Shown here piece after piece: positions 13,511 to 40,240 of a stretch of DNA of 55,116 nucleotides; position 1 is the stretch's first letter; the number at the start of each line of letters is the position of its first letter. Under the pieces are notes generated by a model. That model searched no databases and was not told the DNA's origin. It worked only from the letters and a program-made list of their open reading frames with translations. Source of the stretch: Paludibacter sp. (GTDB lineage Bacteria > Bacteroidota > Bacteroidia > Bacteroidales > Paludibacteraceae); NCBI GenBank assembly GCA_028691965.1, contig JAQUYE010000010.1, forward strand, positions 1 through 55,116, written 5' to 3'. The translations under genes were made by a program, and so were the position numbers.

Positions 13511-16228
13511 TTAGCGATTCAGCAACAGACTTACCATCAGAAAAGGACCGATTGCTTTCGGATCGTTATCCCGTACAGGTTCGGACAGGTAATACGCATA
13601 ACTTCCGTCGCGGTACACCTTTTCACCTCCCAGTCCGGCTACCGAACAGCAATCGGTAATCGAAACAACCCCGTTTTCATCGGTACGAACGAAGCGTTTT
13701 ACAAATTGATCATAGGCTTCTTTCCCTTTTTCGAGGTATTCGGCAGGCAATACACCGAGTTGCGCTCCCTTCACCCAACTGTAGATAAACATCGCTGAGG
13801 AAGTTGACTCCAGGTAATTGCCGGGAGCACCTACCTTATCGGTTACCTGATACCACATGCCTGTCGGCTTATCTCTGAATTTCTCGAGCGAGTTACTAAG
13901 GTTCGTTAACACCGAAACCACCTCGTCGCGTTTTGGATGTGTTGCCGGCAGGTGCTCAAGCACATCTACCAATGCCATCATATACCAGCCCAGACTTCTT
14001 CCCCAGAAATTTGGAGACACTCCGGTTTCGGGATTTGCCCAGCGCTGCTGGCGACTCTCATCCCAACCGTGGTAATACAGTCCGGTAGCCGGGTCGTAAC
14101 TTTTCGCAGCCATCAGGAGCAGCTGATGAGTAACCTCATCAAACAAGGCAGGTTCGTTGAAGCGCGCTCCAAACTCAGCCAGAAAAGGAGAAGCCATGTA
14201 GAGTCCGTCGAGCCACATCTGGTGCGGATACACTTTTTTATGCCAGAATCCGCCTTCGGAGGTGCGCGGGTGCGTCAGCATCTGATCACGCAGCAACTGC
14301 AGGGCCAGTCGGTACTTTTTGTCACCGGTTTTGTCGTACACCAGGTATAACAATTTACCAGGGTTCACCCTGTCGATATTATATTCCTCCGGTTTATAGG
14401 TGCGGATAGACCCATCGCTGCCCACCATCATATCGGCAAAACTAAAGGCGTAATTCCGGTAAGCCGGGTTCTTGTAGTGCTCGCCCACCATAGCAATTGC
14501 CTGCAGTTCCAGGCCGTGGGTGTAATCCCACTTGGGAGCCTTTGCAAAATCAACCATCCAGCTTTCGGGATTCCGCTTCATCTCCGAATCAACCATGCTA
14601 ACCGATAGTTTCTTTGAAAAACCGGGAATAGTGATATTCGTAGAAGCATCGTCGATACGTACCCCTTCATTCCCTTCGGGATAGCTAAATTCGCCCTCAA
14701 CATTCAGATTCTTTACCTTGTTCAGGATTAAGGCCGGTCCCTCTTGCGGTACTATCTGCACGTTACGCAATAAGATACCGTTGGATTCGGAAAATTCGGC
14801 TCCGTAGCGTGCCGAGAAAATGGCATCTTCTACTTTAATATTGGTAATGTTCATCTCGGGCAGGCCATTGAAGAACATGGCACGACGGGCATTGCGCGAT
14901 ACCAGGTTTTTCACAAAGATATTCCGGAAAGCAGGGGTTTCTTCGGTAACCGGCAAAGCAGCATCGGCACGTGGGGCATCAAGTCCGGCCTCCAGTGCTT
15001 CGGAAGCTGACCTGCCCCCGTAGAATAAATCGAACAGGAACGAGTCGGTTACGATGTCGAACATGTAGATATCGCTGATGTAGATATTCTCCACAACCCC
15101 TCCGCGTCCGCGGGTACTTTTGAAACGCAGGCCCACATCTGTTCCTAAAAACTGACAATTCGATACCTTAATATTACGTACGCTACCCGACATTTCGCTG
15201 CCCACTACAAAGCCACCATGACCTTTAAACACCTTGCAGTTATCAACTATCACGTTCTCGGTGGGGCGGTTACGGCGACGACCATCAGCATCTTTACCTG
15301 ATTTAATACAGATAGCATCGTCACCTACATCAAAATAACTATTAATTACCAACACATTACGACTCGACTCAATATCAAGTCCGTCGCCATTCTGCGAAAA
15401 AGAAGGATTACGAACGGTGATATTATCGATAATAACATTTTCGCACATGAGTGGATGGATATTCCAGCTCGGAGAGTTTTCGAACAACACACCCTGTAGT
15501 AATACATTTTTACATTCAGTCAGACTGATCATTACCGGGCGAAGGAAATCGCGGACTTCCATCCACTCTTCGTCGGTGGTTAATCCCTGAGGTACATTCA
15601 TATTGCTCATTTCGTGAGCTCTCAGCGATTGTTCGGTAGGGAACCAGTAGTCGGCATCGCGCAATACACCACCCGAACTTACTACTTTTTTCCAATGCGC
15701 TTCGGTAACCTTCGAGCGTTTCAAAGGGCGCCAGGCTTCGCCCGAGCCATTGATCGATCCTTCGCCTGTAATGGCAATGTTCTCAAGGCCGTTACCAGAG
15801 ATGGGCGACTGACAGCGCTTTGTATCGAGACCTTCGAATACCGTATTCACCAGGGGATAGAGGTCGAAGTCGGGCGAAAACAAAATCAATGCACCCTTCT
15901 CGAGGTGAAAATTGATGTTCGACTTAAGCACGATAGGTCCGGTAAACCAGACTCCCGGAGGTACAATAAGTTTGCCTCCCCCTTTGGCCGACAAGGCTTC
16001 GATACTTTTACGAAAAGCCTCCGTGTTGAGGGTCATCCCATCACCTACTGCACCAAAATCTGAAATGCTCACGGTATTTCGTGGAAATACCGGAGCCTTC
16101 AGTTCTTTCATAGAAAAAGGTAAATTCGTAAAATACGAGCGGTAGGAAGTTTTGGAACCTGCCATACCTGTCGACATCCCTAAAATGCCGGCTAACAAAA
16201 CAATCAATCTGAGATTCTTCACTATCAT
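13511..16228 (-). CDS. GH28 polygalacturonase fused to GH105 unsaturated uronyl hydrolase
   Basis: A 905-residue exported two-enzyme polypeptide. After a signal peptide (about 1-23), residues about 50-540 form a right-handed beta-helix of family GH28. Catalytic motifs are NGDGLDIES (D282), GDDAICIKSGKD (D303/D304) and GHGGFVVGSE (H337). Residues about 545-905 are an (alpha/alpha)6-barrel resembling GH105/GH88, with KWDYTHGLELQAI, HQMWLDGLYM, NFWGRSLGWY and the C-terminal RDGSYAYYLSEP. GH28 would cut galacturonan or rhamnogalacturonan. GH105 would remove the unsaturated uronate that lyases such as the upstream PL1 leave at oligomer ends. The PL1 gene is 14 bases upstream on the same strand. 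Confidence 0.92.
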   Translation of the reverse strand: MIVKNLRLIVLLAGILGMSTGMAGSKTSYRSYFTNLPFSMKELKAPVFPRNTVSISDFGAVGDGMTLNTEAFRKSIEALSAKGGGKLIVPPGVWFTGPIVLKSNINFHLEKGALILFSPDFDLYPLVNTVFEGLDTKRCQSPISGNGLENIAITGEGSINGSGEAWRPLKRSKVTEAHWKKVVSSGGVLRDADYWFPTEQSLRAHEMSNMNVPQGLTTDEEWMEVRDFLRPVMISLTECKNVLLQGVLFENSPSWNIHPLMCENVIIDNITVRNPSFSQNGDGLDIESSRNVLVINSYFDVGDDAICIKSGKDADGRRRNRPTENVIVDNCKVFKGHGGFVVGSEMSGSVRNIKVSNCQFLGTDVGLRFKSTRGRGGVVENIYISDIYMFDIVTDSFLFDLFYGGRSASEALEAGLDAPRADAALPVTEETPAFRNIFVKNLVSRNARRAMFFNGLPEMNITNIKVEDAIFSARYGAEFSESNGILLRNVQIVPQEGPALILNKVKNLNVEGEFSYPEGNEGVRIDDASTNITIPGFSKKLSVSMVDSEMKRNPESWMVDFAKAPKWDYTHGLELQAIAMVGEHYKNPAYRNYAFSFADMMVGSDGSIRTYKPEEYNIDRVNPGKLLYLVYDKTGDKKYRLALQLLRDQMLTHPRTSEGGFWHKKVYPHQMWLDGLYMASPFLAEFGARFNEPALFDEVTHQLLLMAAKSYDPATGLYYHGWDESRQQRWANPETGVSPNFWGRSLGWYMMALVDVLEHLPATHPKRDEVVSVLTNLSNSLEKFRDKPTGMWYQVTDKVGAPGNYLESTSSAMFIYSWVKGAQLGVLPAEYLEKGKEAYDQFVKRFVRTDENGVVSITDCCSVAGLGGEKVYRDGSYAYYLSEPVRDNDPKAIGPFLMVSLLLNR

Positions 16229-16242
16229 ATGTTTTTATTTAT

Positions 16243-17688
16243 TTAATACAAGTGTTCAACCAGCGAATACAGGTACATTTCAAGCCAGGTATACGCTGAA
16301 TCTTTATAGTTCTTTGCGGCATCTGTTGTATCCTGAGGATTCAGACCCTTCTTTTTCTCCCAGCTATCAGGGATGCCATCTTCATCCGTATCCACCGGTA
16401 CCTGATCGGCTGTAAAGCGTAGCTCAGGCCACCCTCCTACATCTTCCTGCGAATCGATCATCCCGAATTCACTTCCTTTCGAACCGGAAAAGGTATAGCT
16501 ACCTTCCTCTACTTCCTTCACTACTCGCTGATCAACTGCATCTCTCACCTTACTGGCTCCTGCTTTGAGCAGTACCTGTTCGTAAGCCTGCTCTGCCGGT
16601 TGGGTTGGCATGGCAGCAATCGGGAACTCGGTGGCCACACACAGTTGCTCAGCCGTCATCGTTTCACCCTCCTGCACATCGGGATGAATACCCAGCAGGT
16701 TATTGGCAGTTACCTCAGCATGGTTGTGCATTATATTGCCGGCAACATAAAACGAACCCCATACCCCTTTGGGCTGCTGATTCGTCCCGGTATCCGAATT
16801 GGGAGCAAAAATGCGGTAGGTTAACTTCCCTTTACGAGCTAGGGTAGCAGGTCCGGGCTTGTAGTAATTATTTACGAGATTGTACGAACCTCCCTCACCG
16901 GCATAGGCACTGTTGCTTCCCCAGTTATAAATCACGTTATTACGAAAATCGACCATTTCGGATGACGGGTCATTACTATAGCGACTTCCACAAAAGCGGG
17001 GATTTCTGCTGTCGTGGTGTGCCAGCAGGTTATGGTGAAAAGATGCTTTTTTTCCTCCCCATATACCACCATATCCGTGCAAACCTTTTGCATGAATAGA
17101 AGTGCGTAAACTCTCGGAAAGAATACACCACTGCATGGTGAAGTTCTCATTATCGTAAAACGAGGAACACTCATCGGTACTCCAGCTCATCGAACAGTGA
17201 TCAATCAGTACATTTGTCCGACGTATTCCCTTGAGTGCATCGTCGGCCAACCCTCCTTCATCACCCATCCGAAAGCGCAGAAACTGTACAATTACATTAT
17301 CAGCACTAACGGTAACGGGATAGCCGCGCAGGGTTATTCCATCGCCGGGTGCCGACTGCCCTGCAATGGTAAGATCGCCTTTGTTAATTTTTAAAATAGA
17401 TTGAAGTTGAATACTCCCCGCAACCTTAAACAGGATGGTGCGCGGACCGGATTGATTGATTGCCCAGCGAAGTGTTCCCTGTTGCTTTGGATCATCCTCG
17501 AGCGAGGTAACATACAAGACCTTTCCTCCTTTTCCACCGGTTACCACCGCACCTCCACCGAGAGCTCCGGGGTAAAGGCCATATTCGATTGCTGATGAAG
17601 AAGCTACCGGTAATTTTTGGGCAGAATTACAAGAAAATAACACAAAAAATATAAAACTGAGTGAGAGTAGATTTGCTTGTTGTTTCAT
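16243..17688 (-). CDS. Pectate lyase, polysaccharide lyase family 1
   Basis: A 481-residue exported lyase cleaving alpha-1,4-polygalacturonate by beta-elimination, usually with Ca2+. The N-terminus is a hydrophobic segment ending LFSC with Cys at residue 20, so it is probably a lipoprotein, although F before S-C is not ideal. The parallel beta-helix carries the PL1 motifs DHCSMSWSTDE, SRNPRFCGSR with the catalytic arginine region, and VIYNWGSNSAYAGEGG. Near the C-terminus VDTDEDGIPDSWEKKKGLNP is a Ca-binding thrombospondin type 3-like repeat. It is the first gene of a two-gene operon with the GH28-GH105 fusion. Confidence 0.93.
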   Translation of the reverse strand: MKQQANLLSLSFIFFVLFSCNSAQKLPVASSSAIEYGLYPGALGGGAVVTGGKGGKVLYVTSLEDDPKQQGTLRWAINQSGPRTILFKVAGSIQLQSILKINKGDLTIAGQSAPGDGITLRGYPVTVSADNVIVQFLRFRMGDEGGLADDALKGIRRTNVLIDHCSMSWSTDECSSFYDNENFTMQWCILSESLRTSIHAKGLHGYGGIWGGKKASFHHNLLAHHDSRNPRFCGSRYSNDPSSEMVDFRNNVIYNWGSNSAYAGEGGSYNLVNNYYKPGPATLARKGKLTYRIFAPNSDTGTNQQPKGVWGSFYVAGNIMHNHAEVTANNLLGIHPDVQEGETMTAEQLCVATEFPIAAMPTQPAEQAYEQVLLKAGASKVRDAVDQRVVKEVEEGSYTFSGSKGSEFGMIDSQEDVGGWPELRFTADQVPVDTDEDGIPDSWEKKKGLNPQDTTDAAKNYKDSAYTWLEMYLYSLVEHLY

Positions 17689-23198: not shown

Positions 23199-25574
23199 CT
23201 AAAAATTAAATCGTATTCCGGCAACTAATCCCCAGGGAGTAACTCCCGGTTTCGACCGTTCGGTAAGTCGCCACACCGATTGAAGAGAGGCTACTTTAAA
23301 GATGTTAGTGACACCAACTCCAACTTCCACATAGGGTTTGGAGCTGGTTGAAAGTCCCGGAGGCATATCATAACTACTGCTTCGATCCGAATCCATTCCT
23401 CCGTAAATAGCTTTCAGGGTAACCAACTCACGCAGGTTCCAGTTTTTAACAAGGGGGAGATAGTTGAATAGCAGTCCGTTGAACTGTACCTCCTGATGAG
23501 TGGAGATGTACTTATCGTAACTGTATTCCATATAATTCATCAGGTTAAAGTGCAATTTACGGTGGAGCAAAGCCCGGCCGCTACCCTGATTAAAAAAGAG
23601 ATTATAGGGAACATCGCCGAACAACCAACCGGCATCGACGCTATACATCCACTGACCTGTCGGGAACAACAGTTTATGTTTGTACTTTACAACCAGCCTG
23701 GCATAGGTCAGGTCGGTCGCATACGGAGTTATCTTTCCGGCCTCCGCTATCAGGTATACCACCGGCTTCTCGTTGGGAACATAGAGTCGGTCGAGGTGAT
23801 CTTCGTAGGTTCGCTCGTACGACGAAAAGCGGGTTACCAGGGTAAGGGATTGATGCAGGTAGTCCGAATCCACACCCCGATCAGAGGAGAACGGGAGATA
23901 TTCGTTTCCGAAATACCGGTTGGAACGGAAAAATAGCTTACTTTCCATATCATCGTTCCAGTCGTGCGAAAGCGATACCTGCCATTCCTTCCGTGCGTTG
24001 AGCCTGCGTTGAGTGGTAAAAGTAACCAACGAATTGGCTATATCAATATCGCCCGAAAGCAGGGGATTCTCTTTCACCATATAATCATTGTACTCGTAGT
24101 CGGTACGCCGGATATCATCGGTATAGGATGCCCTCACCACCGTTTTTCGCTCAAACGGAAGCTTAAATCCCGTATTCACCGAATAATAATGGCGCCTGGA
24201 GTGTAGTCCGTACCCCCAATACCCACCGACTTCAACATTCGGCATCAGGAGTTCGTTGGTACGCAATGGCAGGGTAAAGCGCAAGCCCTCCTCTTCAGTA
24301 AGCCGGGCAACCTGATACACCTTTCCCAGGTCAATTTTCCCGAATTTGGCATAGCCGGTAATGATGATGTCGGCTATCCAGCGAGCCGTCTTCATCAGCG
24401 GCATTTCGTTCAATTCGGCTATCTGCGACTCAATTTCTTCTTTCTTAAACGTAGTGCCAGCGAATCCGTCATTAGCCGGCAGCAGCATTTCGTCGGGCAG
24501 CGTATGTATACGTTTGTAGGTATATACTTCAGGAATTAGCTGTGCACTATCAACCTGCACAGCATACCTAATGGCAGTATGTACCAGCGTAGTTTGGGGA
24601 ATCCATCTGCGCCCCTGATACCTAAATTGCTGACGAACCGAAAGCGCCTGTACGTAGTTAAGATTGGCTTGCCGGGGGAGTTCGACCGTTAGATCGGTCA
24701 ATGCAAGCGTAGCCGAATCGATATACATCTCACCGTTGAAAGCGAGGTTTTTCGGATTTTTGGACCAGAACCGGAGGTAATACTGCTTGCCTGTAGGTCT
24801 GGCAACACTATCAACCAGGTAATAGCGGTAAAACGCGTTGCCCGACGAGGCGAGCGGACTGATAACTGACTTCCCGAACACCTGGATAGAATTGTGGTAG
24901 AAGTTAAAGTCGGAGCGGAGGTTACCGGCCAGCTTTTCCATGATTAGCTGTAGGTTTTCGGGACTTGCCGACGAAGTCCGTTCATGGATTATGTGCGGAG
25001 CATCGCCTTGTCGTGTAAGCTGTTCCTCAGCGATAAACAAGGGGATGAAATGGGTTGAATCCGTGTGCGATACCAAACCAGCAGTCCATTTTCTAAACCG
25101 TGAACGCACCGACTCACTACCGACTGGCATCAGCACCAGCTCCTCTTCTTTCGACCGGAAGGCTTGTTGCGAGTTGAAAACATCGTTCACACCGGCTGCT
25201 TCTCTTACTTTCTTCATTAATAAAGTAGCAGGATTAACCCCCGGGAATACGATTAACTCCTGTAGGGCAAGGATATCTTCGCGCAGTTGAACGTTCAGAC
25301 TTACCGGTTCGCCGGGGCGAACAGTAGCGACATGCTTTTTGTAGCCTATACTCGAAAACACCACCTTACGTTCCCCACCGCTATGCTTTAACACATAGAA
25401 ACCCTCCTCATCTGTCTGTGTGCCGTAACCGGTCCCTTCGAAATACACATTCACAGCAGGAATCGGTGATTTATCGAACGCATTGCGAACATAACCCACA
25501 ACAATGGTCTCACTCTCCTGAGCAAAAGAGAGAGCAGGCATTAAAAACAGAAACAGGATAAGAAGGTATCTCAT
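23199..25574 (-). CDS. DUF5686 family outer-membrane protein with carboxypeptidase-regulatory-like domain
   Basis: A 791-residue exported protein. A signal peptide (1-18) is followed by a CarboxypepD_reg-like beta-sandwich (about 23-110, VGYVRNAFDKSPIPAVNVYFEG ending near VSLNVQLRE). A large DUF5686 region follows, with alternating aromatic strands in the C-terminal half that ends in Phe (IRFNF), as expected of an outer-membrane beta-barrel. The function of DUF5686 is unknown. It is not a TonB-dependent transporter, since no plug is seen. Its start overlaps the xerD stop by four bases, so the two are co-transcribed. Confidence 0.88.
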   Translation of the reverse strand: MRYLLILFLFLMPALSFAQESETIVVGYVRNAFDKSPIPAVNVYFEGTGYGTQTDEEGFYVLKHSGGERKVVFSSIGYKKHVATVRPGEPVSLNVQLREDILALQELIVFPGVNPATLLMKKVREAAGVNDVFNSQQAFRSKEEELVLMPVGSESVRSRFRKWTAGLVSHTDSTHFIPLFIAEEQLTRQGDAPHIIHERTSSASPENLQLIMEKLAGNLRSDFNFYHNSIQVFGKSVISPLASSGNAFYRYYLVDSVARPTGKQYYLRFWSKNPKNLAFNGEMYIDSATLALTDLTVELPRQANLNYVQALSVRQQFRYQGRRWIPQTTLVHTAIRYAVQVDSAQLIPEVYTYKRIHTLPDEMLLPANDGFAGTTFKKEEIESQIAELNEMPLMKTARWIADIIITGYAKFGKIDLGKVYQVARLTEEEGLRFTLPLRTNELLMPNVEVGGYWGYGLHSRRHYYSVNTGFKLPFERKTVVRASYTDDIRRTDYEYNDYMVKENPLLSGDIDIANSLVTFTTQRRLNARKEWQVSLSHDWNDDMESKLFFRSNRYFGNEYLPFSSDRGVDSDYLHQSLTLVTRFSSYERTYEDHLDRLYVPNEKPVVYLIAEAGKITPYATDLTYARLVVKYKHKLLFPTGQWMYSVDAGWLFGDVPYNLFFNQGSGRALLHRKLHFNLMNYMEYSYDKYISTHQEVQFNGLLFNYLPLVKNWNLRELVTLKAIYGGMDSDRSSSYDMPPGLSTSSKPYVEVGVGVTNIFKVASLQSVWRLTERSKPGVTPWGLVAGIRFNF

Positions 25575-26461
25575 TTGCGTAGTAAAGGGTGAAAATCGAA
25601 AATTGTTTTTTTAAGGAAATGAATGTCTATGTGCGTATAAATCTCGGTCGTGGTGATGGATTCGTGCCCCAGCAAGAGCTGGATGGCCCGAAGGTTGGCA
25701 CCGTTTTCCAACAAATGCGTAGCAAAAGAATGGCGCAGGGTGTGCGGACTCACCGATTTCCTGATTCCCGCTAGTTCGGCAAGCTGCTTTACAATCACAA
25801 AAATCATGGCTCTGGTTAATTTACTTCCCCTGCGGTTTAAAAAGATAAAATCTTCATGCCCTTTCTTTATAGCGAGTACATGCCGGTCGATGTACCATAA
25901 CTTTAACTCTTTGAGGGTTTGTTCGGAGACAGGCACCAACCGCTGTTTGCTCCCTTTCCCTTCCACAAGAATATATCCTTCGTCGGCATTCAATCGTGAA
26001 AGCTGCAGGTTGATGAGCTCCGACACCCGCAATCCCGAGCCATATAGCATTTCAATAATCGCTTTATTACGCTGACCTTCAGGCTTCGAAAGATCGATGG
26101 CAGCTATCATTGCATCAATTTCGGCAACTGTCAGCACTTCAGGCAAATACAGACCGGTTTTGGGTGTACCTATCAACTCAGTGGGATCGTCGGCACGACG
26201 GTCGTTGTACAGCAGAAAACGATAGAACGACTTGATACCCGAAAGAATACGTGCCTGAGTGCGGGGATGGATACCCATCGAGCCGAGCTCCACCATAAAA
26301 TCGCTGAGATGCTCCCTTTCAGCATGCTCAGGAGCAATATGAGCATCACTCAGGAATACAAAAAGCTTCTCCAGATCACTCTTATATGCTTGAATCGAGT
26401 TTTCTGACAGGCCTTTCTCAACCTTTAAATAGTACATGTATTCTTTAAAAACGGAGTTCAT
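25571..26461 (-). CDS. xerD: Tyrosine recombinase XerD
   Basis: A 296-residue site-specific recombinase that resolves chromosome dimers at dif with XerC. It has an N-terminal SAM-like core-binding domain (about 1-85) and a C-terminal catalytic domain with the complete set R145, K169, H240, R243, H266 and nucleophile Y275 (HTLRHSFATHLLENG, LLGHESITTTEIYTH). There are no neighbouring integron or phage genes, so a housekeeping Xer role is favoured over a mobile integrase. It is coupled to the DUF5686 gene by a 4-base overlap. Confidence 0.92.
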   Translation of the reverse strand: MNSVFKEYMYYLKVEKGLSENSIQAYKSDLEKLFVFLSDAHIAPEHAEREHLSDFMVELGSMGIHPRTQARILSGIKSFYRFLLYNDRRADDPTELIGTPKTGLYLPEVLTVAEIDAMIAAIDLSKPEGQRNKAIIEMLYGSGLRVSELINLQLSRLNADEGYILVEGKGSKQRLVPVSEQTLKELKLWYIDRHVLAIKKGHEDFIFLNRRGSKLTRAMIFVIVKQLAELAGIRKSVSPHTLRHSFATHLLENGANLRAIQLLLGHESITTTEIYTHIDIHFLKKTIFDFHPLLRK

Positions 26462-32039: not shown

Positions 32040-33116
32040 ATGCAAAACAACAATCACAAACCACGGATAAAAGATATTGCCCGCATGGCCGGGGTATCGG
32101 AAGGTACAGTCGACCGCGTGCTACACAATCGTGGTGAAGTGTCAGACAAAAGCAAGAGTGCCGTTATGCAGGTATTGGAAGAAATTAACTACTCCCCTAA
32201 TCTTCTGGCCCGTTCACTAGCCTCAAAAAAGAATTATACCTTCATCTGTCTGATTCCGTCGTTTCAGCCGGGTGATTACTGGGAATTTGTTGAGAATGCA
32301 TTCCGACAAGCGGGAAAGGATTTTCTGCATTATAATATTCACCTCGATATCCGTTATTTCAATCAATTTGAGGTAGATTCATTTTCGGAGCTTTCAGAGG
32401 AGGTAATCAAGCTGGAGCCTGATGCGATTATTATTGCTCCCATCTTCCGGGAAGAAACTCTTGAATTCACAACCCGACTTCTAAAATCAGATATTGCTTT
32501 TTCGTTGATTGATTCAATTATAGAAGAGGCATCCTATACTACTTACTACGGTCAGAATTCATTTCAAAGCGGTTACGTGGCTGCTAAGCTACTGCTTAAT
32601 GATCTTCCACAGAAAAGCAGGGTGTTGATTCTTCGAACCAAACGCCAGGGATCGATCTCTAATCAGACTAAATACCGTTTTGAGGGTTTCATGAACTATG
32701 TGAATGAGCATCCTGATAATTCGAAGGAACTGGTTCATATTGAAATCAGCGATAAAGACGATAAAGCAAACTTTCGAATTATTGAGGAGGTTTTTAAACA
32801 GTATAACGATATAAATGCTGCTATAACGTTTAATTCGAAGGTATACCGATTGGCCAATTATCTGAAACAACTGGGGCAGACTTCTATCCGGTTAATCGGT
32901 TACGACTTACTCGACAAAAATGTGGAGTATCTTAAAAAGGATGTTATATCGTACCTGATAGCTCAGAGTCCGGGTAAGCAGGCATATTATACTGTCAGGG
33001 ATTTATGCAATAAATTAATCCTTAAAAAGGAAGTTCAGCAGACCAACTTCGTACCGATCGACATTTTATTAAAAGAGAATATTATTGACTATATAAACTT
33101 CAGAGAAAATTATTAA
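32040..33116 (+). CDS. LacI family transcriptional regulator of the hexuronate operon
   Basis: A 358-residue repressor with an N-terminal LacI HTH (RIKDIARMAGVSEGTVDRVLHN, hinge helix near NLLARSLASKK) and a periplasmic-binding-protein-like effector domain (about 65-350). It heads the operon and is preceded by two matching palindromes, so autoregulation is likely. The inducer is probably a sugar acid or its keto derivative handled by the downstream enzymes (inference from context). Twenty-one bases separate it from the tagaturonate epimerase gene. Confidence 0.9.
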   Translation: MQNNNHKPRIKDIARMAGVSEGTVDRVLHNRGEVSDKSKSAVMQVLEEINYSPNLLARSLASKKNYTFICLIPSFQPGDYWEFVENAFRQAGKDFLHYNIHLDIRYFNQFEVDSFSELSEEVIKLEPDAIIIAPIFREETLEFTTRLLKSDIAFSLIDSIIEEASYTTYYGQNSFQSGYVAAKLLLNDLPQKSRVLILRTKRQGSISNQTKYRFEGFMNYVNEHPDNSKELVHIEISDKDDKANFRIIEEVFKQYNDINAAITFNSKVYRLANYLKQLGQTSIRLIGYDLLDKNVEYLKKDVISYLIAQSPGKQAYYTVRDLCNKLILKKEVQQTNFVPIDILLKENIIDYINFRENY

Positions 33117-33137: not shown

Positions 33138-34385
33138 ATGAAACTAGGAAAGATTAGTATTGGAATGGGCGACCGATTCGCTCATCAGGGTGTAGCTCAA
33201 TTACGTGCAATTGTAAAAGCAAACAAAGCCGGAATGGACATCAGTCCGGTGTGGAATAAATCAAATCGTGAACATATCTATGTTCATTCTCATCCGGCCG
33301 ATGTGCGCAAAGAAGCTGATCATGCTGTTGCCACCCTGGACTTCAAGGGTAAATACTTCGTCGATGCCGACCATATCAACTTATCTACAGTGGCTCCTTT
33401 TGTTGAAACGGCCGACTTCTTCACACTCGACGTGGCTGCTTTCATCGGCAAACCGAGTCCCGATGCTGAAGTACAGAAATTTGTAGATTCTTGCTCTGCT
33501 TATATGGGAGACCTCGTAATTCCGGGCATTCAAAAACCAATCAAAGTTACCCGCGAACTTCTTGTTGAGATTGCTTCAAAGTTCTTAGCAGCTACTCAAC
33601 AAGCTTCTGAGATTTATCAGTACCTGGTAGAAAAGAAGGGGAAAGGTCAGTTTATTACCGAAGTATCCATGGACGAAGTAGAACATCCGCAAACTCCGGT
33701 TTACTTGTTCTTCATTCTTAAAATGCTTGCCGATAAGGGAGTACCTGCTCAGACTATTGCACCTAAATTTACAGGTCGCTTTAATAAGGGTGTAGATTAT
33801 CGTGGTGATCTGGATCAGTTTGCCCGCGAGTTTGAAGAAGATATTCTGGTAATAGATTATGCTGTAAAGCAATTTGGCCTTCCGGAAGAATTGAAACTAA
33901 GCGTTCACTCCGGAAGTGATAAGTTCTCCATTTACCCGATTATGGCGGCTGTTATTAAAAAATATGATAAGGGTCTGCACCTGAAGACTGCCGGTACCAC
34001 CTGGCTGGAAGAGGTAATCGGACTTGCACTGGCAGGAGGCGATGGACTGGAAATGGCAAAAGCAATTTATGCTGACTCCTTCAATCGTCGTGAAGAACTC
34101 TGTGCTCCTTATGCCGATGTTATTGATATTGATCCTGCACGTTTACCTTCCGTTGAGGAAGTTAATTCATGGAGCGGAGAGAAACTGGCAAATACACTTC
34201 GTCATATTCCGGGTCATCCTGATTACAACGCCGACTTCCGTCAGCTTGTACATGTGGCCTATAAAGTGGCTGCTGAAAAGGGAGATGCTTACTATGCCAT
34301 GTTGAAGAAATACAGCGATGTAATTGGTGAATGCGTTGAAGAAAACATCTATGAACGCCACCTGAAACGCTTATTAAACATTTAA
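33138..34385 (+). CDS. uxaE: Tagaturonate epimerase family protein (UxaE-like)
   Basis: A 415-residue protein that I recognise as the UxaE family, which interconverts D-tagaturonate and D-fructuronate and so lets galacturonate enter the glucuronate/mannonate branch without UxaA/UxaB. Recognisable segments are the N-terminal SIGMGDRFAHQG, YFVDADHIN, APKFTGRFNKGVDYRGD and LSVHSGSDKFSIYP. The family is a metal-dependent epimerase, so His/Asp in these segments are probable ligands (inference). It is the first enzyme gene of the operon, followed 11 bases later by the SDR reductase acting on its product. Confidence 0.85.
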   Translation: MKLGKISIGMGDRFAHQGVAQLRAIVKANKAGMDISPVWNKSNREHIYVHSHPADVRKEADHAVATLDFKGKYFVDADHINLSTVAPFVETADFFTLDVAAFIGKPSPDAEVQKFVDSCSAYMGDLVIPGIQKPIKVTRELLVEIASKFLAATQQASEIYQYLVEKKGKGQFITEVSMDEVEHPQTPVYLFFILKMLADKGVPAQTIAPKFTGRFNKGVDYRGDLDQFAREFEEDILVIDYAVKQFGLPEELKLSVHSGSDKFSIYPIMAAVIKKYDKGLHLKTAGTTWLEEVIGLALAGGDGLEMAKAIYADSFNRREELCAPYADVIDIDPARLPSVEEVNSWSGEKLANTLRHIPGHPDYNADFRQLVHVAYKVAAEKGDAYYAMLKKYSDVIGECVEENIYERHLKRLLNI

Positions 34386-34396
34386 AATACTGAAGG

Positions 34397-35209
34397 ATGA
34401 GAAACTTATTTGATATAAAAGACCAGGTTATAGTCCTAACCGGCGGCACCGGGGTATTGGGCAGCTGTATGGCTGAATACCTTGCCGAACAAGGGGCTAA
34501 AGTAGTGGTATTGGCACGAAATAAAGAAAAGGGTGATGCCCTGGTAAACGGTATTCGTGCTAAAGGCCAGGAAGCAATGTTCCTGGTTACCGACGTGAAC
34601 GATAAAGCAGTATTGGAGAAAAACGCCGAAGATATCGTGGCCAACTACGGCAGAATCGATGTTCTTGTAAATGGTGCAGGCGGAAATATGCCTGGTGCAA
34701 CTATTGGTCCTGATAAGACATTATTCGACTTGAATATTGATGATTTTAAAAAAGTAGTTGATCTGAACTTATTCGGAACCATTATTCCTACTATGGTCTT
34801 TGCTAAGGTAATGACACAACATAAAAAGGGAAACATCATTAATATTTCCTCTGAAGCTGCACTTCGTCCGCTTACCAGGGTTGCCGGCTATGGTGCGGCT
34901 AAAGCAGCAGTAACTAACTTTACAAAGTACCTTGCCATTGAGTTGGCAACTAAATTCGGAGAAGACTTCCGGGTAAATGCATTTGCACCGGGATTCTTTA
35001 TCTCAGAACAAAACCGTGCTTTACTAACCAATCCTGATGGATCGCTTACGGCACGCGGACAGTCGATCATTGCTCATACTCCATTCGGCCGCTTTGGAGA
35101 GCCGGAAGAACTGCTGGGAACACTTCACTGGTTAGCCAGTGATGCTTCAAAGTTTGTAACCGGCACACTGACCGTAATCGACGGAGGATTTGATGTATTC
35201 AGCATTTAA
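34397..35209 (+). CDS. uxuB: SDR family D-mannonate oxidoreductase (fructuronate reductase)
   Basis: A 270-residue classical short-chain dehydrogenase: TGGTGVLGSC cofactor motif near residues 16-25, NGAGGN near 93-98, catalytic S/Y/K (NISSEAAL ... YGAAKAA), and C-terminal GTLTVIDGGFDVF. It closely resembles the SDR-type fructuronate reductases seen in Bacteroidales and Bacillus hexuronate operons, which reduce D-fructuronate to D-mannonate. The name uxuB refers to the function; the fold differs from E. coli UxuB. The position directly after uxaE supports this substrate. Other sugar-acid dehydrogenase activities are possible. Confidence 0.82.
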   Translation: MRNLFDIKDQVIVLTGGTGVLGSCMAEYLAEQGAKVVVLARNKEKGDALVNGIRAKGQEAMFLVTDVNDKAVLEKNAEDIVANYGRIDVLVNGAGGNMPGATIGPDKTLFDLNIDDFKKVVDLNLFGTIIPTMVFAKVMTQHKKGNIINISSEAALRPLTRVAGYGAAKAAVTNFTKYLAIELATKFGEDFRVNAFAPGFFISEQNRALLTNPDGSLTARGQSIIAHTPFGRFGEPEELLGTLHWLASDASKFVTGTLTVIDGGFDVFSI

Positions 35210-35224
35210 TTCACAAAAAACAAT

Positions 35225-36304
35225 ATGAGTATCACATTAAAAGAAAACTGCAAGTACAATCTACTGGTTGCCAGTAGTATGGGAGTTCGTATTACGCCAT
35301 TGAACGGGCAGCCTGTTCACACAAGTAAAACGTTTGAAATGCAGGCTACCAGTGCGGAGACAAATGTTGCTAACATAGCTTCGTCTCTGGGCATGTCGGT
35401 GAAGGTGCTAACCACCTTTGTTAAAGATAGCCCTATTGCTCAATTCATTAAAAACGAACTTCGGAGTCGTAATATTGCTTACGAAGGACCGGAAATGGCA
35501 CAGTCCGACCCCTGGGGTTACCGTCATCAGTTCAACATTGCCGACAGTGGCTTCGGGACCCGCGGACCAAGAGTTCAGAACGATCGTGCCGGAGAAGTAG
35601 GACGCACCCTTAACGTAAAGGATTTTGACCTGGATCGAATCTTTGTACAGGAAGGGGTACAGATACTTCACCTTTCCGGTCTGATTGCTGCTTTGTCGGA
35701 AGAAACCAGCCAGTTCTGTCTGGAACTTGCCCGTTTTGCACGCAATACCGGAACGCGCATTTCATTCGACCTCAACTACCGTGCTTCGTTCTGGAAGGGT
35801 AGAGAAAAAGAACTACGGGCGGTATTTACCGAAATAGCTTCTGTTTCGGATATCCTGATTGGTAATGAAGAAGATTTTCAGCTTTGCCTGGGTATCGAAG
35901 GACCGGAAGCCGGAGGAAAAGGGATAGAAGCGGAGATTGAAGGATTCAAAGGAATGATAGGCCGCGTTAAGGCTGCTTTCCCGAATGCTTCGGTATATGC
36001 GACTACACTGCGTCAGGTTATCAGTGCCAACGAACATCTTTGGGGAGCTATCCTGCTTGACGAAAACGACTGGCAGGTAATATTACCCCGTAAGATTAAC
36101 GTACTCGACCGTATTGGTGGTGGTGACGGATATGTGGGTGGCATGCTTTACGCTATCCTGAAAGGCTGGGAATCTGAAAAATGGCCTCAGTTTGGATGGG
36201 CTACCGGAGCATTGGCTACTACTATGCTCACCGACTATGCTTCACCTGCTGATGAAGACCAGGTGTGGAGTATATGGGGTGGGAATGCGCGTGTTAAACG
36301 TTAA
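35225..36304 (+). CDS. PfkB-family sugar-acid kinase (KDG kinase-like)
   Basis: A 359-residue ribokinase-fold kinase. It has the substrate-side region SAETNVANIASSLGM (43-57), a conserved SFDLNYRASFW (180-190) typical of 2-keto-3-deoxygluconate kinases, an IGNEEDF segment (212-218) and the anion-hole/catalytic motif RIGGGDGYVGGML with D301 as the base. By family it would phosphorylate 2-keto-3-deoxygluconate. By operon context gluconate is an alternative substrate, because no KDG-forming dehydratase is encoded here and 6-phosphogluconate dehydrogenase is. Spacing to neighbours is 15 and 11 bases. Confidence 0.82.
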   Translation: MSITLKENCKYNLLVASSMGVRITPLNGQPVHTSKTFEMQATSAETNVANIASSLGMSVKVLTTFVKDSPIAQFIKNELRSRNIAYEGPEMAQSDPWGYRHQFNIADSGFGTRGPRVQNDRAGEVGRTLNVKDFDLDRIFVQEGVQILHLSGLIAALSEETSQFCLELARFARNTGTRISFDLNYRASFWKGREKELRAVFTEIASVSDILIGNEEDFQLCLGIEGPEAGGKGIEAEIEGFKGMIGRVKAAFPNASVYATTLRQVISANEHLWGAILLDENDWQVILPRKINVLDRIGGGDGYVGGMLYAILKGWESEKWPQFGWATGALATTMLTDYASPADEDQVWSIWGGNARVKR

Positions 36305-36315
36305 GAACTACTACA

Positions 36316-37605
36316 ATGATGTATTTTGAAAAGGGAGGTGCCGGGCTGGAGCTTGGCTCCTCCGATTTAAAGGAAGGTCTTTTTACCGCGTTGGAGAAAT
36401 TAGGTAAACGCCATAAGGTTCTTGCCATTCCTCCTGATTATACGCGACTTCCAAGTCGGGCCGGTGAATTGACGGAACTATGCTGGAACTACTACGGAGA
36501 GGCTCTTACCGACGTACTTCCTGCACTGGGAACGCATAGTCCGATGACTGCCCCGCAGATTGAGCACATGTTTGGTGCTATGCCCTCATCACTGATCCGG
36601 GAGCATGATTGGCGCAATGATGTGGTAACACTGGGTACAGTTCCGGCTGAGTTTGTTAAGGAAGTATCGGAAGGTGCAGTTGACTTTCCATGGCCTGCCC
36701 AGGTAAATAAATTACTGAGAGATGGTGGTTTTGATCTTATTCTTTCAATAGGACAGGTTGTGCCTCACGAAGTAGTGGGCATGGCTAATTACAACAAAAA
36801 CATCTTTGTAGGTACCGGAGGATCGGAAGGAATTAATAAAAGTCATTTTATTGGAGCAGCTTATGGCATGGAACGCATGATGGGTCATGCCGACACTCCC
36901 GTACGCAGAGTATTTAACTATGCTTCCGATAATTTTGCCAACCATCTTCCGATCGTTTATGTACAGACTGTCGTGGGACTTGACAAGACCGACGGCAAGG
37001 TGAAAACACGCGGTTTGTTTATAGGCGACGACTTTGAGGTATTTGACAAGGCAGCGCGACTGGCACTGGAAGTAAACTTTGAGATGCTCGATCGTCCGCT
37101 TAAAAAAGTGGTAGTTTACCTCGATCCTACCGAATTTAAAAGCACCTGGCTGGGTAATAAATCAATCTACAGAACCAGAATGGCTATCGACGATGAAGGA
37201 GAACTAATCGTTCTTGCACCGGCATTAAAGGAATTTGGAGAAGATAAGGAAATAGACCGCCTCATCCGCAAATACGGCTATTTCGGAACACCTTTCACCC
37301 TGAAAGCGTGCGACGAAAACGAGGAGCTCCGTCAGAACCTCGGTGCAGCGGCACACCTTATACATGGTTCAACGGAAGGTAGGTTCTCCGTTACCTATTG
37401 CCCGGGTAAAAAAGAAGGAAACCTTAGTCGCGAAGAAATTGAAAGTGTGGGCTTCAAGTGGGCCGACTACGATGAGGTAGTGGGTAGTTACAACCCTGAT
37501 GAATTAAAAGACGGCTTTAACATCCTTCCAGATGGTGAAGAAATATTCTATATATCGAATCCTGCACTGGGCTTATGGGCTTACAGGGAACGTTTTAAGT
37601 ACTGA
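36316..37605 (+). CDS. LarA-superfamily nickel-pincer racemase/epimerase (DUF2088)
   Basis: A 429-residue homologue of lactate racemase LarA. All key positions of the L. plantarum enzyme can be placed. D41 and R44 lie in PPDYTRLP (its D72/R75), H74 in LGTHSP (H108) and H151 in VPHEVVG (H174). The cofactor-attachment lysine K161 lies in NYNKNIFVG (K184), and the nickel-ligand H177 in INKSHFIG (H200). The 10- and 16-residue spacings of the last three are identical. It therefore probably carries the nickel-pincer nucleotide. The operon points to an aldonate, such as D-mannonate/D-gluconate C2 epimerisation, rather than lactate. The cofactor genes larB, larC and larE are not in the window. Confidence 0.85.
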   Translation: MMYFEKGGAGLELGSSDLKEGLFTALEKLGKRHKVLAIPPDYTRLPSRAGELTELCWNYYGEALTDVLPALGTHSPMTAPQIEHMFGAMPSSLIREHDWRNDVVTLGTVPAEFVKEVSEGAVDFPWPAQVNKLLRDGGFDLILSIGQVVPHEVVGMANYNKNIFVGTGGSEGINKSHFIGAAYGMERMMGHADTPVRRVFNYASDNFANHLPIVYVQTVVGLDKTDGKVKTRGLFIGDDFEVFDKAARLALEVNFEMLDRPLKKVVVYLDPTEFKSTWLGNKSIYRTRMAIDDEGELIVLAPALKEFGEDKEIDRLIRKYGYFGTPFTLKACDENEELRQNLGAAAHLIHGSTEGRFSVTYCPGKKEGNLSREEIESVGFKWADYDEVVGSYNPDELKDGFNILPDGEEIFYISNPALGLWAYRERFKY

Positions 37606-37611
37606 TAAACA

Positions 37612-38745
37612 ATGAAAATCGTAATTGACGATAAAATCCCATACATCCGTGGCGCTTTTGAACCCTATGCGGATGTACTCTACTTGTCGGGACCTGCCAC
37701 AACTGCTTCAGTAGTAAAAGATGCAGCTGCCATAGTTACCCGGACACGTACCAATTGCAATAAAGAATTACTCGACGGTTCGTCGGTTAAAATTATTGCA
37801 ACTGCTACTATTGGTTTTGATCATATCGATACTGACTACTGTGAAAGAAATGGTATCAGATGGACAAATGCACCCGGTTGTAATTCAAAATCTGTTGAAC
37901 AGTACATTGCCTCCGTTCTGATGGTATGGGCTGAAAAACAAGAACGAAAACTAAGCGATAGCTGTATTGGGATAATTGGGGTTGGCAATGTAGGAAGCAA
38001 GGTAGCACGAATTAGTGAGTTGTTGGGCATGAAGGTTCTGCTGAACGACCCTCCCCGGGCCCGCAGGGAGCAATCAGGTGACTTTGTCGATATTTCGGTA
38101 ATACAGCAGGAAGCAGATATTATCACGTTGCATGTGCCGTTGGAAACAGCAGGAGAAGACCCTACCTATCATCTTATTAATCCTTTGTTCGTGAATGGGT
38201 TAAAGAAGCAAGCACTATTAATAAATTCGTGTCGGGGCGAGGTTACTGATACCAGCGCGGTAAAACTGGCTGTACAAGCCGGGCAGATTGCCGGCTTTGT
38301 AGCAGATTGCTGGGAGAATGAACCTGATATCGACAGAGAATTAATGGAGATGTGTTTTCTGGCAACTCCTCATATTGCCGGATACTCAAAAGATGGCAAA
38401 GCAACAGGAACGCGTATGAGCGTACAGTCGATCAGCCGCTTTCTGGGTATGGAACTTAATAATTGGGAACCTGCAGGTATAGAGCCTCCTTTAAAACCGG
38501 TACTCCACATCAATGGAAAGGGATTATCTGATCAGGAGATTGTTGCCAGGGCAATTTTGCATAGTTATGATATCCGCGATGACGATACTGCTTTCCGCAG
38601 TAAACCGGAAGCATTTGAACAGCTACGGGGTGATTATCCTGTGAGAAGAGAATTTCCGGCATATACCATTAAAGCAGAAAATATTCCGCCATCGGTGCTG
38701 AACATTTTGAGTCAGTTAGGCTTTAGAATTGATGGAGTACACTAA
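37612..38745 (+). CDS. pdxB: 4-phosphoerythronate dehydrogenase (PdxB-like 2-hydroxyacid dehydrogenase)
   Basis: A 377-residue D-isomer-specific 2-hydroxyacid dehydrogenase. The NAD motif GVGNVG is at 123-128, with R208, E237 and H254 as the catalytic triad (NSCRGE, WENEPDI, ATPHIAGYSKDG). TATIGFDHID and NAPGCNSKSVEQY are typical of PdxB, which acts in the DXP-dependent pyridoxal phosphate pathway, and the C-terminal extension fits PdxB. Its position six bases after the LarA homologue and ahead of gnd is unusual for a vitamin B6 gene. A sugar-acid substrate remains possible. Confidence 0.85.
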   Translation: MKIVIDDKIPYIRGAFEPYADVLYLSGPATTASVVKDAAAIVTRTRTNCNKELLDGSSVKIIATATIGFDHIDTDYCERNGIRWTNAPGCNSKSVEQYIASVLMVWAEKQERKLSDSCIGIIGVGNVGSKVARISELLGMKVLLNDPPRARREQSGDFVDISVIQQEADIITLHVPLETAGEDPTYHLINPLFVNGLKKQALLINSCRGEVTDTSAVKLAVQAGQIAGFVADCWENEPDIDRELMEMCFLATPHIAGYSKDGKATGTRMSVQSISRFLGMELNNWEPAGIEPPLKPVLHINGKGLSDQEIVARAILHSYDIRDDDTAFRSKPEAFEQLRGDYPVRREFPAYTIKAENIPPSVLNILSQLGFRIDGVH

Positions 38746-38751
38746 AACAAC

Positions 38752-38759
38752 TAAATTTG
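38752..38759 (+). promoter_or_regulatory. -7 promoter box (TAAATTTG) for gnd
   Basis: TAAATTTG fits TAnnTTTG and lies 26 bases upstream of the gnd ATG at 38786, just after the pdxB stop. A TTGA at 38729-38732, 19 bases upstream, is a possible -33 element. gnd could thus be expressed both alone and by read-through from the operon. Confidence 0.55.
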
Positions 38760-38785
38760 CAATTAAAAATAACAATAGAAATCGT

Positions 38786-40240
38786 ATGAAGCAAAAAGCA
38801 GACATTGGCCTGATTGGTTTGGCCGTAATGGGGGAAAACCTCGTTCTGAACATGGAGAGCAAAGGTTTCACTGTGGGTGTATACAACCGTACAGTTGAAA
38901 AAGTTGACCAGTTTTTGGCTGGCCGCGGTAAAGGTAAAAACTTTATCGGTGCACATTCTATAAAGGAATTGTGCGACTCACTTGAAAAGCCCCGTAAAGT
39001 AATGATGCTGGTAAAGGCAGGAAAACCGGTTGATGACTTTATCGAACAAATTATTCCTCACCTCGAAGAAGGTGATATCATTATTGACGGTGGTAACTCT
39101 CATTTCCCCGATACCATTCGTCGTACTAAGTACGTGGAAAGTAAAGGATTATTGTACATAGGTACAGGAGTTTCCGGTGGTGAAGAAGGTGCTTTACTTG
39201 GTCCTTCCATGATGCCCGGAGGATCACCTGCAGCATGGCCTGCAGTGAAGGAAATCTTCCAGGCTGTTGCAGCAAAAGTAGAAGACAATGTACCTTGTTG
39301 CGACTGGGTAGGCGAAGATGGTGCCGGTCATTTCGTAAAAATGGTACACAACGGTATTGAATATGGTGATATGCAAATCATCAACGAATCGTATCAGTTG
39401 ATGAAGGATCTGCTGGGTATGAATGCCGACGAGATGCACGAAGTGTTTAAGGAATGGAATAAGGGTGACCTGGATTCGTACTTAATTGAGATTACCCGCG
39501 ATATTCTTGCTTATAAGGATACCGACGGGGAGGCTTTGGTTGAGAAGATTCTCGATACTGCAGGCCAGAAAGGTACGGGTAAATGGACAGGTATAGTAGC
39601 ACTCGACCTGGGTATTCCCCTTACCCTAATTGGCGAGTCGGTATTTGCCCGTTGTTTGTCGGCCCAGAAAGACATTCGCGTAAAAGCATCGAAAGTAATC
39701 AGCGGACCGAAAGTTAACTTTACAGGCGAAAAGAAACAAATGATTGACGACTTGAAAGATGCCTTGTTTGGTGCCAAAATTATTTCGTATGCTCAGGGTT
39801 ATAACCTGATGATGGAAGCTGCTAAAGAATACAGCTGGAATCTGAACTACGGAGGTATTGCTCTTATGTGGCGTGGTGGCTGTATCATTCGCTCTGCGTT
39901 CTTAGGTGATATTAAAAAGGCTTTCGACAAGAACCCCGGATTAGAAAACCTGCTACTGGATCCTTACTTCAAGGAAAAAGTGGAAAAGGCACAGGCAGGA
40001 TGGCGTCGTGTATGTGCAGCAGCACTTAGCAACGGGATTCCGGTTCCGGCACTTACTTCGGCTCTCTGCTACTTCGACGGATTACGCAGCGAACGACTGC
40101 CGGCTAACCTGCTTCAGGCTCAGCGCGACTACTTTGGAGCTCATACCTACGAACGAATCGATCGTCCGCGTGGTCAGTTCTTCCACACTAACTGGACTGG
40201 TCGTGGTGGTGATACTGCTTCAACAACCTATGAAGTATAA
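38786..40240 (+). CDS. gnd: 6-phosphogluconate dehydrogenase, decarboxylating
   Basis: Oxidatively decarboxylates 6-phosphogluconate to ribulose-5-phosphate. The protein has 484 residues. It has an N-terminal Rossmann motif GLAVMGENLVLN with NRT (NADP-type), VKAGKPVDDFI, the substrate site SGGEEGALLGPSMMPGG, the catalytic lysine in HFVKMVHNGIEYGDMQ, and the C-terminal HTNWTGRGG tail. The start at 38786 is preferred because an upstream in-frame ATG at 38729 would lie before the promoter and inside pdxB. zwf and pgl are not adjacent. The gene ends at a strong terminator. Confidence 0.96.
   Translation: MKQKADIGLIGLAVMGENLVLNMESKGFTVGVYNRTVEKVDQFLAGRGKGKNFIGAHSIKELCDSLEKPRKVMMLVKAGKPVDDFIEQIIPHLEEGDIIIDGGNSHFPDTIRRTKYVESKGLLYIGTGVSGGEEGALLGPSMMPGGSPAAWPAVKEIFQAVAAKVEDNVPCCDWVGEDGAGHFVKMVHNGIEYGDMQIINESYQLMKDLLGMNADEMHEVFKEWNKGDLDSYLIEITRDILAYKDTDGEALVEKILDTAGQKGTGKWTGIVALDLGIPLTLIGESVFARCLSAQKDIRVKASKVISGPKVNFTGEKKQMIDDLKDALFGAKIISYAQGYNLMMEAAKEYSWNLNYGGIALMWRGGCIIRSAFLGDIKKAFDKNPGLENLLLDPYFKEKVEKAQAGWRRVCAAALSNGIPVPALTSALCYFDGLRSERLPANLLQAQRDYFGAHTYERIDRPRGQFFHTNWTGRGGDTASTTYEV

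Follow-up and report, generated by a model that had tools for sequence, protein, structure and literature searches.

A run of six plus-strand open reading frames (ORFs) occupies positions 33138-40240 of a 55,116-nucleotide stretch of DNA from Paludibacter sp. (contig JAQUYE010000010.1 of assembly GCA_028691965.1). This whole stretch, hereafter the window, lies on contig C56 of a draft genome (G000; 3.04 Mb in 167 contigs, 89% complete). The ORF list and the NCBIfam and Pfam profile scores bore out the order, strand, and identities that a first-pass annotation had assigned to the six genes. They are preceded by a gene for a regulator:

32040..33116, plus strand: LacI-family regulator (PF00356 and PF13407), likely the local operon regulator
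33138..34385, plus strand: UxaE-type tagaturonate/fructuronate epimerase (PF16257, E 1.1e-54, profile positions 80-475 of 475; no NCBIfam match)
34397..35209, plus strand: SDR fructuronate reductase, i.e., D-mannonate oxidoreductase (NF006132, 374 bits, cut-off 281)
35225..36304, plus strand: PfkB-family kinase, putative aldonate (gluconate or mannonate) 6-kinase (PF00294, E 9e-20)
36316..37605, plus strand: LarA homologue of group 18, putative D-mannonate/D-gluconate 2-epimerase (NF052594, 651 bits, cut-off 500)
37612..38745, plus strand: PdxB, 4-phosphoerythronate dehydrogenase (NF001309, 447 bits, cut-off 434; DUF3410 domain PF11890)
38786..40240, plus strand: Gnd, 6-phosphogluconate dehydrogenase (decarboxylating) (TIGR00873, 760 bits, cut-off 427; start set at the ATG at 38786)

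A gap of 21 bp separates the regulator gene from that of UxaE, and the gaps that follow, down to Gnd, measure 11, 15, 11, 6, and 40 bp; distances this short make it plausible that the genes from LacI to Gnd form one transcription unit. A separate promoter close to gnd had been raised as a caveat in the first-pass annotation, and we found no evidence for it: the single match to a relaxed Bacteroidota-type pattern, at 38729, carries no weight, as one or more such matches arose in 24% of 500 mononucleotide shuffles. A generic promoter scan returned 18 matches against a mean of 16.1, which is background. On the minus strand, 14-19 kb upstream of the run, lies a gene for a GH28-GH88 fusion pectin enzyme (13511-16228), and next to it one for a weakly pectate-lyase-like protein (16243-17688, also minus strand; without a Pfam match, and at 134 bits well short of the PelZ cut-off, 840). 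Genes of this kind are in keeping with hexuronates that derive from pectin.

What might such a gene run accomplish? We consider it moderately probable that it forms a pentose-phosphate exit of the hexuronate (pectin/galacturonate) pathway, with the epimerase acting before the kinase. UxaC, which is encoded on another contig, and UxaE would convert galacturonate to fructuronate; the SDR would reduce this compound to D-mannonate; the group-18 LarA would epimerize D-mannonate at C2 to D-gluconate; PfkB would phosphorylate D-gluconate to 6-phosphogluconate; and Gnd would release CO2 and yield ribulose 5-phosphate. The broader proposition, that the run leads from hexuronate to 6-phosphogluconate with the epimerase and kinase steps in either order, is one that we hold with good confidence. 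The first-pass annotation had proposed the same path from mannonate through gluconate to 6-phosphogluconate, and had taken it to be both undescribed in this layout and a bypass of mannonate dehydratase, 2-keto-3-deoxygluconate (KDG) kinase, and 2-keto-3-deoxy-6-phosphogluconate (KDPG) aldolase. As detailed below, the path itself gained support, whereas its supposed novelty and the notion of a bypass did not survive.

The layout has a precedent. The Thermotoga maritima operon aldH-pelB-gnd-uxaRED-gntEK is set apart from the canonical kdgAK-uxuBA genes (PMC3750489), and a route through mannonate epimerase, gluconokinase, and Gnd was proposed for this organism by Rodionova et al. in 2012, according to PMC6978723 and PMC3750489. 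In both organisms, genes for UxaE, a reductase, a GntE of the LarA family, a kinase, and Gnd are grouped, in a pectin context and with the same split from the canonical exit; the combination of UxaE, fructuronate reductase, GntE-type LarA, and Gnd that marks the Thermotoga type is present in the window. The two systems differ in that the window's LarA belongs to group 18 and that of T. maritima to group 20, in that PfkB takes the place of gntK and the SDR that of UxaD, and in that the regulator is of the LacI rather than the GntR type. T. maritima also has larC, as a control search showed, whereas our genome has no larB, larC, or larE over cut-off. The gntK product of T. maritima is presumably an FGGY protein. 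If our reading is correct, the route proposed for Thermotoga would extend to many Bacteroidota; among the titles returned by a literature search for a hexuronate-gluconate route in Bacteroidetes, nothing on point was found.

The LarA homologue is central to this route. It scores above the curated cut-off of NF052594, a model named "nickel-dependent putative hexonate epimerase" that we matched by name to group 18 of PMC7583248. The sequences closest to it come from assemblies of Paludibacter sp.: the LarA of L021 at 90% and, on the tree, that of L022 at 87%. PMC7583248 assigns catalytic or cofactor-binding roles to LarA residues D72, R75, H108, H174, K184, H200, and K298. All seven equivalents (D41, R44, H74, H151, K161, H177, and K282) are kept, as are loop residues E152 and V153; indeed, each of the ten active-site residues that we inspected is invariant in an alignment of 100 rows, 92 of them distinct (101 sequences were found, one of which was short, and eight genes were fetched twice). 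The AlphaFold model (pLDDT 88) has a LarA fold. Its best Foldseek match is 4nar (T. maritima Q9WYS3; E 2.4e-28, 24% identity), followed by lactate and malate racemases, and 4nar is also the best solved relative by sequence. In that study, D-mannonate/D-gluconate 2-epimerase activity was measured for members of groups 19 and 20 (GntE1 and GntE2), and GntE2 works on free mannonate (PMC7583248). The window's protein resembles these enzymes in superfamily, catalytic residues, and the acidic loop residue, E152, which is like that of GntE2; it differs from them in its group and in having 24% identity to 4nar. We infer from these likenesses that it epimerizes D-mannonate at C2 to D-gluconate, and the acidic loop, together with the action of GntE2 on free mannonate, favors placing the epimerase first.

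Does the gene run recur elsewhere? Of 555 confirmed stretches containing LarA, we compared the 80 best, a selection that is biased to close relatives: nearly all are from Bacteroidota, two are named as Ignavibacteria(les) and one as Chlorobiota, and in one (L053) no LarA ORF was found. Forty-four of the 80 had enough flanking sequence and, with the window, make up a set of 45 well-flanked loci. Genes were counted there by sequence clusters, so that divergent UxuA, KdgK, or PdxB are missed. The SDR and Gnd are present at all 45 loci and PfkB at 42; the remaining counts are 32 for LacI, 26 for PdxB, 22 each for UxaE and UxaC, 19 for Gfo/Idh, 17 for KdgK, 15 for KDPG aldolase, 13 for the major facilitator superfamily (MFS) transporter, and 5 for UxuA, whose cluster appears at 9 loci when all are counted. 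Both kinases, PfkB and KdgK, occur at 15 of the 45. The neighbors of LarA are found again around it in further families, as well as in a few Ignavibacteria, and this recurrence indicates that the gene run is more than chance.

A set of 60 related genomes, G000 included, gave a concordant picture; the gene sets were compiled by hand, and PfkB was counted there as a score band of about 93-179 bits, fragments included. As 36 of the 60 represent a single genus, Fisher values computed on these counts take no account of relatedness, and we give them no weight. LarA exceeded its cut-off in 33 genomes, of which 31 have a PfkB match and all 33 have Gnd, which is fragmentary in G010 and G027 and passes its cut-off in the other 31. 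The 27 LarA-negative genomes include four with Gnd over cut-off and one with PfkB, namely G015, in which the contig breaks off directly behind this gene. UxuA, searched for with PF03786 only and thus without the enolase-superfamily mannonate dehydratases, had no match in eight LarA-positive genomes out of 33: G017 and G025 (98% complete), as well as G019, G021, G030, G049, G041, and G057. Six of these eight have PfkB; G041 and G057 do not. PfkB follows LarA more closely than it follows UxuA.

If gluconate is made, which enzyme phosphorylates it? No genome of the 60 had a GntK (TIGR01313) or FGGY (TIGR01314) gluconokinase over cut-off, a negative that is weak because each model reached its cut-off in just 2 of 14 control genomes; a search for gntK had been advised in the first-pass annotation, and our own genome is among those that returned none. 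Likewise, NCBIfam and Pfam models revealed no GntK- or FGGY-family gluconokinase in the operon, and G021, which has LarA and PfkB, lacks a match to either GntK family at E 0.001. With PfkB standing in place of the missing GntK-type enzyme, it is the probable aldonate kinase of the route, and would supply a candidate gene family for this activity where no GntK-type enzyme is found. A literature search retrieved no description of a PfkB gluconokinase, including in the parts of PMC6978723, PMC6353982, and PMC5788505 that were accessible.

Several observations weigh against this reading. Group 18 is hypothesized to act on a hexonate, and we found no group-18 LarA with a reported activity in the literature, as far as PMC7583248 was available to us. 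Extracts of Lactobacillus suebicus made 6-phosphomannonate, not gluconate, from mannonate (PMC6978723). PfkB is missing from 3 of the 45 loci and, as noted, from G041 and G057, and in G042 the match that was counted as PfkB is separated from LarA by about 31 kb. Another gluconokinase may be encoded elsewhere, for FGGY proteins below the cut-off do occur (the best in our genome reaches 126.8 bits vs. 648.55, and that of G030 reaches 301). Gnd is also a housekeeping enzyme: zwf is present, and gnd is kept where LarA has been lost. Our genome has no LarB or LarC match, and its LarE match reaches only 33 bits vs. a cut-off of 150. Finally, the genome also encodes UxuA, KdgK, and KDPG aldolase. The first-pass annotation had asked for uxuA and kdgA to be sought elsewhere in the genome, and both were found: UxuA belongs to a locus of the glucuronoxylan type that also contains GH67, GH3, and a second SDR, and KDPG aldolase adjoins KdgK on contig C48, along with UxaC and an MFS transporter. 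Because all three enzymes of the canonical exit are kept, mannonate would have two exits, and the predicted LarA route is a branch beside the canonical exit, with mannonate as the branch point, rather than its replacement.

The order of the two middle steps could be reversed. PfkB would then be a mannonate 6-kinase and LarA a 6-phosphomannonate 2-epimerase, with the same module leading to the same end point, 6-phosphogluconate; we regard this as unlikely, yet it has a biochemical parallel. In the D-galacturonate pathway of L. suebicus, the upper isomerase pathway is joined to 6-phosphogluconate and the lower KDG enzymes are bypassed, as in our proposal; the difference is that mannonate is phosphorylated before it is epimerized, the product entering the phosphoketolase pathway (PMC6978723). 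Extracts supplied with mannonate and ATP yielded 6-phosphomannonate and some 6-phosphogluconate, and the genes of both steps were not identified in that study, which was the only one that a search for mannonate kinases retrieved. Speaking against a phosphorylated substrate, the loop of the window's LarA is acidic (E152) as in GntE2, and an acidic loop beside a phosphate seems improbable; nor did the literature available to us contain a LarA acting on a phosphorylated acid. The window hints at the types of genes behind the mannonate kinase and epimerase activities of L. suebicus, and, were the kinase to act first, its genes would be candidates for these two orphan activities.

A second alternative concerns the kinase. 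PfkB could be a second KDG kinase, with LarA running in reverse so that gluconate is passed through mannonate and UxuA to KDPG; there would then be no pentose-phosphate exit. The gene neighborhoods lend this idea some weight. UxuA, which our own genome possesses, directly adjoins PfkB in 12 of the 33 LarA-positive relatives (G001, G004, G005, G007, G009, G014, G018, G023, G024, G027, G029, and G037), and also in G015. One of them, G037, carries UxaC-SDR-UxuA-PfkB-LarA-PdxB-Gnd-KdgK-KDPG aldolase-MFS in one stretch. Two others, G009 and G018, have LarA and no KdgK-level match, and PfkB could serve as the KDG kinase there. These cases shift some weight from the pentose-phosphate exit to the KDG-kinase explanation. 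Similarity is also of some help to it: the nearest solved relatives of PfkB, by sequence and by fold, include KDG kinases, a resemblance that the first-pass annotation had named as a caveat. The model of PfkB (pLDDT 89.6) has the fold of KDG kinases and of other PfkB enzymes, and this fold does not settle whether KDG or another acid is the substrate.

The differences between PfkB and KdgK are nonetheless considerable. The window's PfkB attains 171.9 bits with NF041633 (a model for an aldolase-kinase fusion, matched over its kinase half; cut-off 700), and its scores with the KDG kinase models are 109 bits vs. a cut-off of 440 (NF041332), 47 vs. 400 (NF040938), and 33 vs. 400 (NF052444). The KdgK of a relative (L024) likewise falls below the cut-offs (218, 113, and 495 bits with NF041332, NF040938, and NF041633, respectively), so that only the gap in scores is informative. 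The KdgK of our own genome scores 497 bits with NF041633, and it matches the solved KDG kinase 2afb with 318 bits vs. 103 bits for PfkB. The two proteins fall into distinct groups that share the PfkB fold and a GGGD motif and are about 27% identical. Residues G35, G36, Y90, and Y105, present in 22 of 22 KdgK proteins and presumably in contact with KDG, are replaced by S43, A44, N104, and N119 in PfkB (65 of 67 at each position). The distribution of the genes points the same way. PfkB tracks LarA, as described above; six of the eight LarA-positive genomes without a UxuA match have it, and genomes with UxuA and KdgK and no LarA match lack it. An example is the one-contig genome G016, where LacI-SDR-UxuA-PdxB-Gnd is found with UxaC, KdgK, and KDPG aldolase nearby and without PfkB or LarA. 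Given the dedicated KdgK elsewhere in the genome, and notwithstanding the adjacency to UxuA in relatives, it is unlikely that PfkB is a KDG kinase, and the explanation built on it as a whole appears improbable to us.

LarA might also act on another pair of hexonates, e.g., altronate, gulonate, or galactonate and the respective C2 epimer, with the kinase using that product. Gnd requires the gluconate configuration, and the SDR, present at 45 of 45 loci, passes in the window the curated model for D-mannonate oxidoreductase. These points make other hexonates very unlikely, even though group 18 bears just the name "putative hexonate epimerase" and the Km of GntE1 for mannonate is 120 mM, such that its authors doubt that mannonate is the natural substrate (PMC7583248). 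Pseudomonas KguK and KguD, a sugar kinase and a 2-hydroxyacid dehydrogenase, are a precedent for a route in which PfkB would phosphorylate 2-ketogluconate and the PdxB-like dehydrogenase would reduce the product to 6-phosphogluconate, but we give it hardly any credence, as the latter protein exceeds the curated cut-off for PdxB, is unseen at 19 of 45 loci, and persists without PfkB and LarA.

For the epimerization of mannonate by LarA, a nickel-pincer cofactor would be needed, and the genes for making it are the most interesting part of this analysis, because most of these genomes appear to be without them. The first-pass annotation had called for a search for larB, larC, and larE; in our own genome, the outcome was negative at the cut-offs. 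Of the 60 genomes, the same 9 have LarB, LarC, and LarE over cut-off, and seven of these 9 carry a group-18 LarA. In the remaining 26 of 33 genomes with this LarA, G000 included, none of the three reaches its cut-off. Matches below the cut-offs (about 20-60 bits) to LarE- and LarB-like proteins are widespread, and we take them to be other enzymes. Incomplete assembly alone was rejected as a cause, since 14 of the 26 genomes that lack the genes are at least 95% complete. The isolates Maribellus sediminis, Draconibacterium aestuarii, Maribellus sp. YY47, and Seramator thermalis, which were searched for LarC only, have no match to it, which also speaks against assembly gaps as the sole cause. LarC is present in the isolates Mangrovibacterium marinum, Sunxiuqinia dokdonensis, Maribellus maritimus, and Mariniphaga sediminis.

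Of the 80 named loci, 50 were searched for LarC, which is full-length or split in two in 13 cases, short and weak in 6, and lacking in 31. The six short matches (L093, L094, L095, L096, L098, and L099; ORFs of 268-284 residues) come from six genomes whose LarAs make up one side of a strong branch, and they are possibly divergent or half LarC proteins. The LarA tree was built by a quick method, and many of its forks are weak; on it, the states of LarC are scattered, with at least six changes forced by strong branches. In 31 rows of the LarA alignment that come from genomes without a LarC match, all seven catalytic and cofactor residues are retained, and this invariance in the face of absent larB, larC, and larE leads us to read the enzyme as still dependent on its cofactor.

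As far as the draft genome shows, the organism would be unable to make the cofactor by the known pathway. The simplest reading is that LarA still uses the nickel-pincer nucleotide and that the cell obtains it in another way; an alternative synthesis route, or a different cofactor for LarA, may be at work instead. Going further, we offer tentatively that a broad set of Bacteroidota, with a fully conserved LarA in a central sugar-acid operon and no larB, larC, or larE, are auxotrophs for the nickel-pincer nucleotide and take it or its precursor up from neighbors, or else make it by a novel synthesis, that their flux from hexuronate to the pentose phosphates depends on it, and that PfkB represents a new family of aldonate kinases. 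The literature mentions larB, larC, and larE without larA (PMC11796402); in the material available to us, we found no mention of the converse and none of cofactor salvage. A testable question arises: do nickel-pincer enzymes function in cells that do not produce the cofactor themselves? If so, this cofactor would be shared between microbes. Vitamin B12 is shared in much the same way.

The PdxB-like dehydrogenase had been included in the run by the first-pass annotation, and its place there is doubtful. PdxB was not seen by cluster count at 19 of the 45 well-flanked loci, all of which keep the SDR and Gnd. Conversely, the adjacency of PdxB and Gnd persists in G022 and in two genomes without any LarA match, G016 and G034. 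The contig stretch of G034 keeps PdxB-Gnd and lacks the rest of the module; in G022 (L105, contig C447), LarA remnants lie beside intact PdxB and Gnd, and there is no match at all to NF041633. PdxB and Gnd are thus a neighbor pair that outlasts LarA and PfkB. We rejected PdxB as a step of the pathway on these grounds; it is probably a linked neighbor or passenger that belongs to vitamin B6 synthesis. The single Gnd match in G000 was the only copy found in this 89%-complete genome.

Other genes also accompany LarA in relatives. A Gfo/Idh/MocA-type oxidoreductase (L021:2196-3218; a cluster of 37 loci) lies 3' of LarA in many of them and is not in the window. At several loci, including those of Dysgonomonadaceae, Gfo/Idh-type proteins and proteins with a 3-keto-disaccharide hydrolase domain are found 3' of LarA (L073:11313-14099). 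Within the window itself, a protein of the tyrosine-type phage-integrase family is encoded at 25571-26461.

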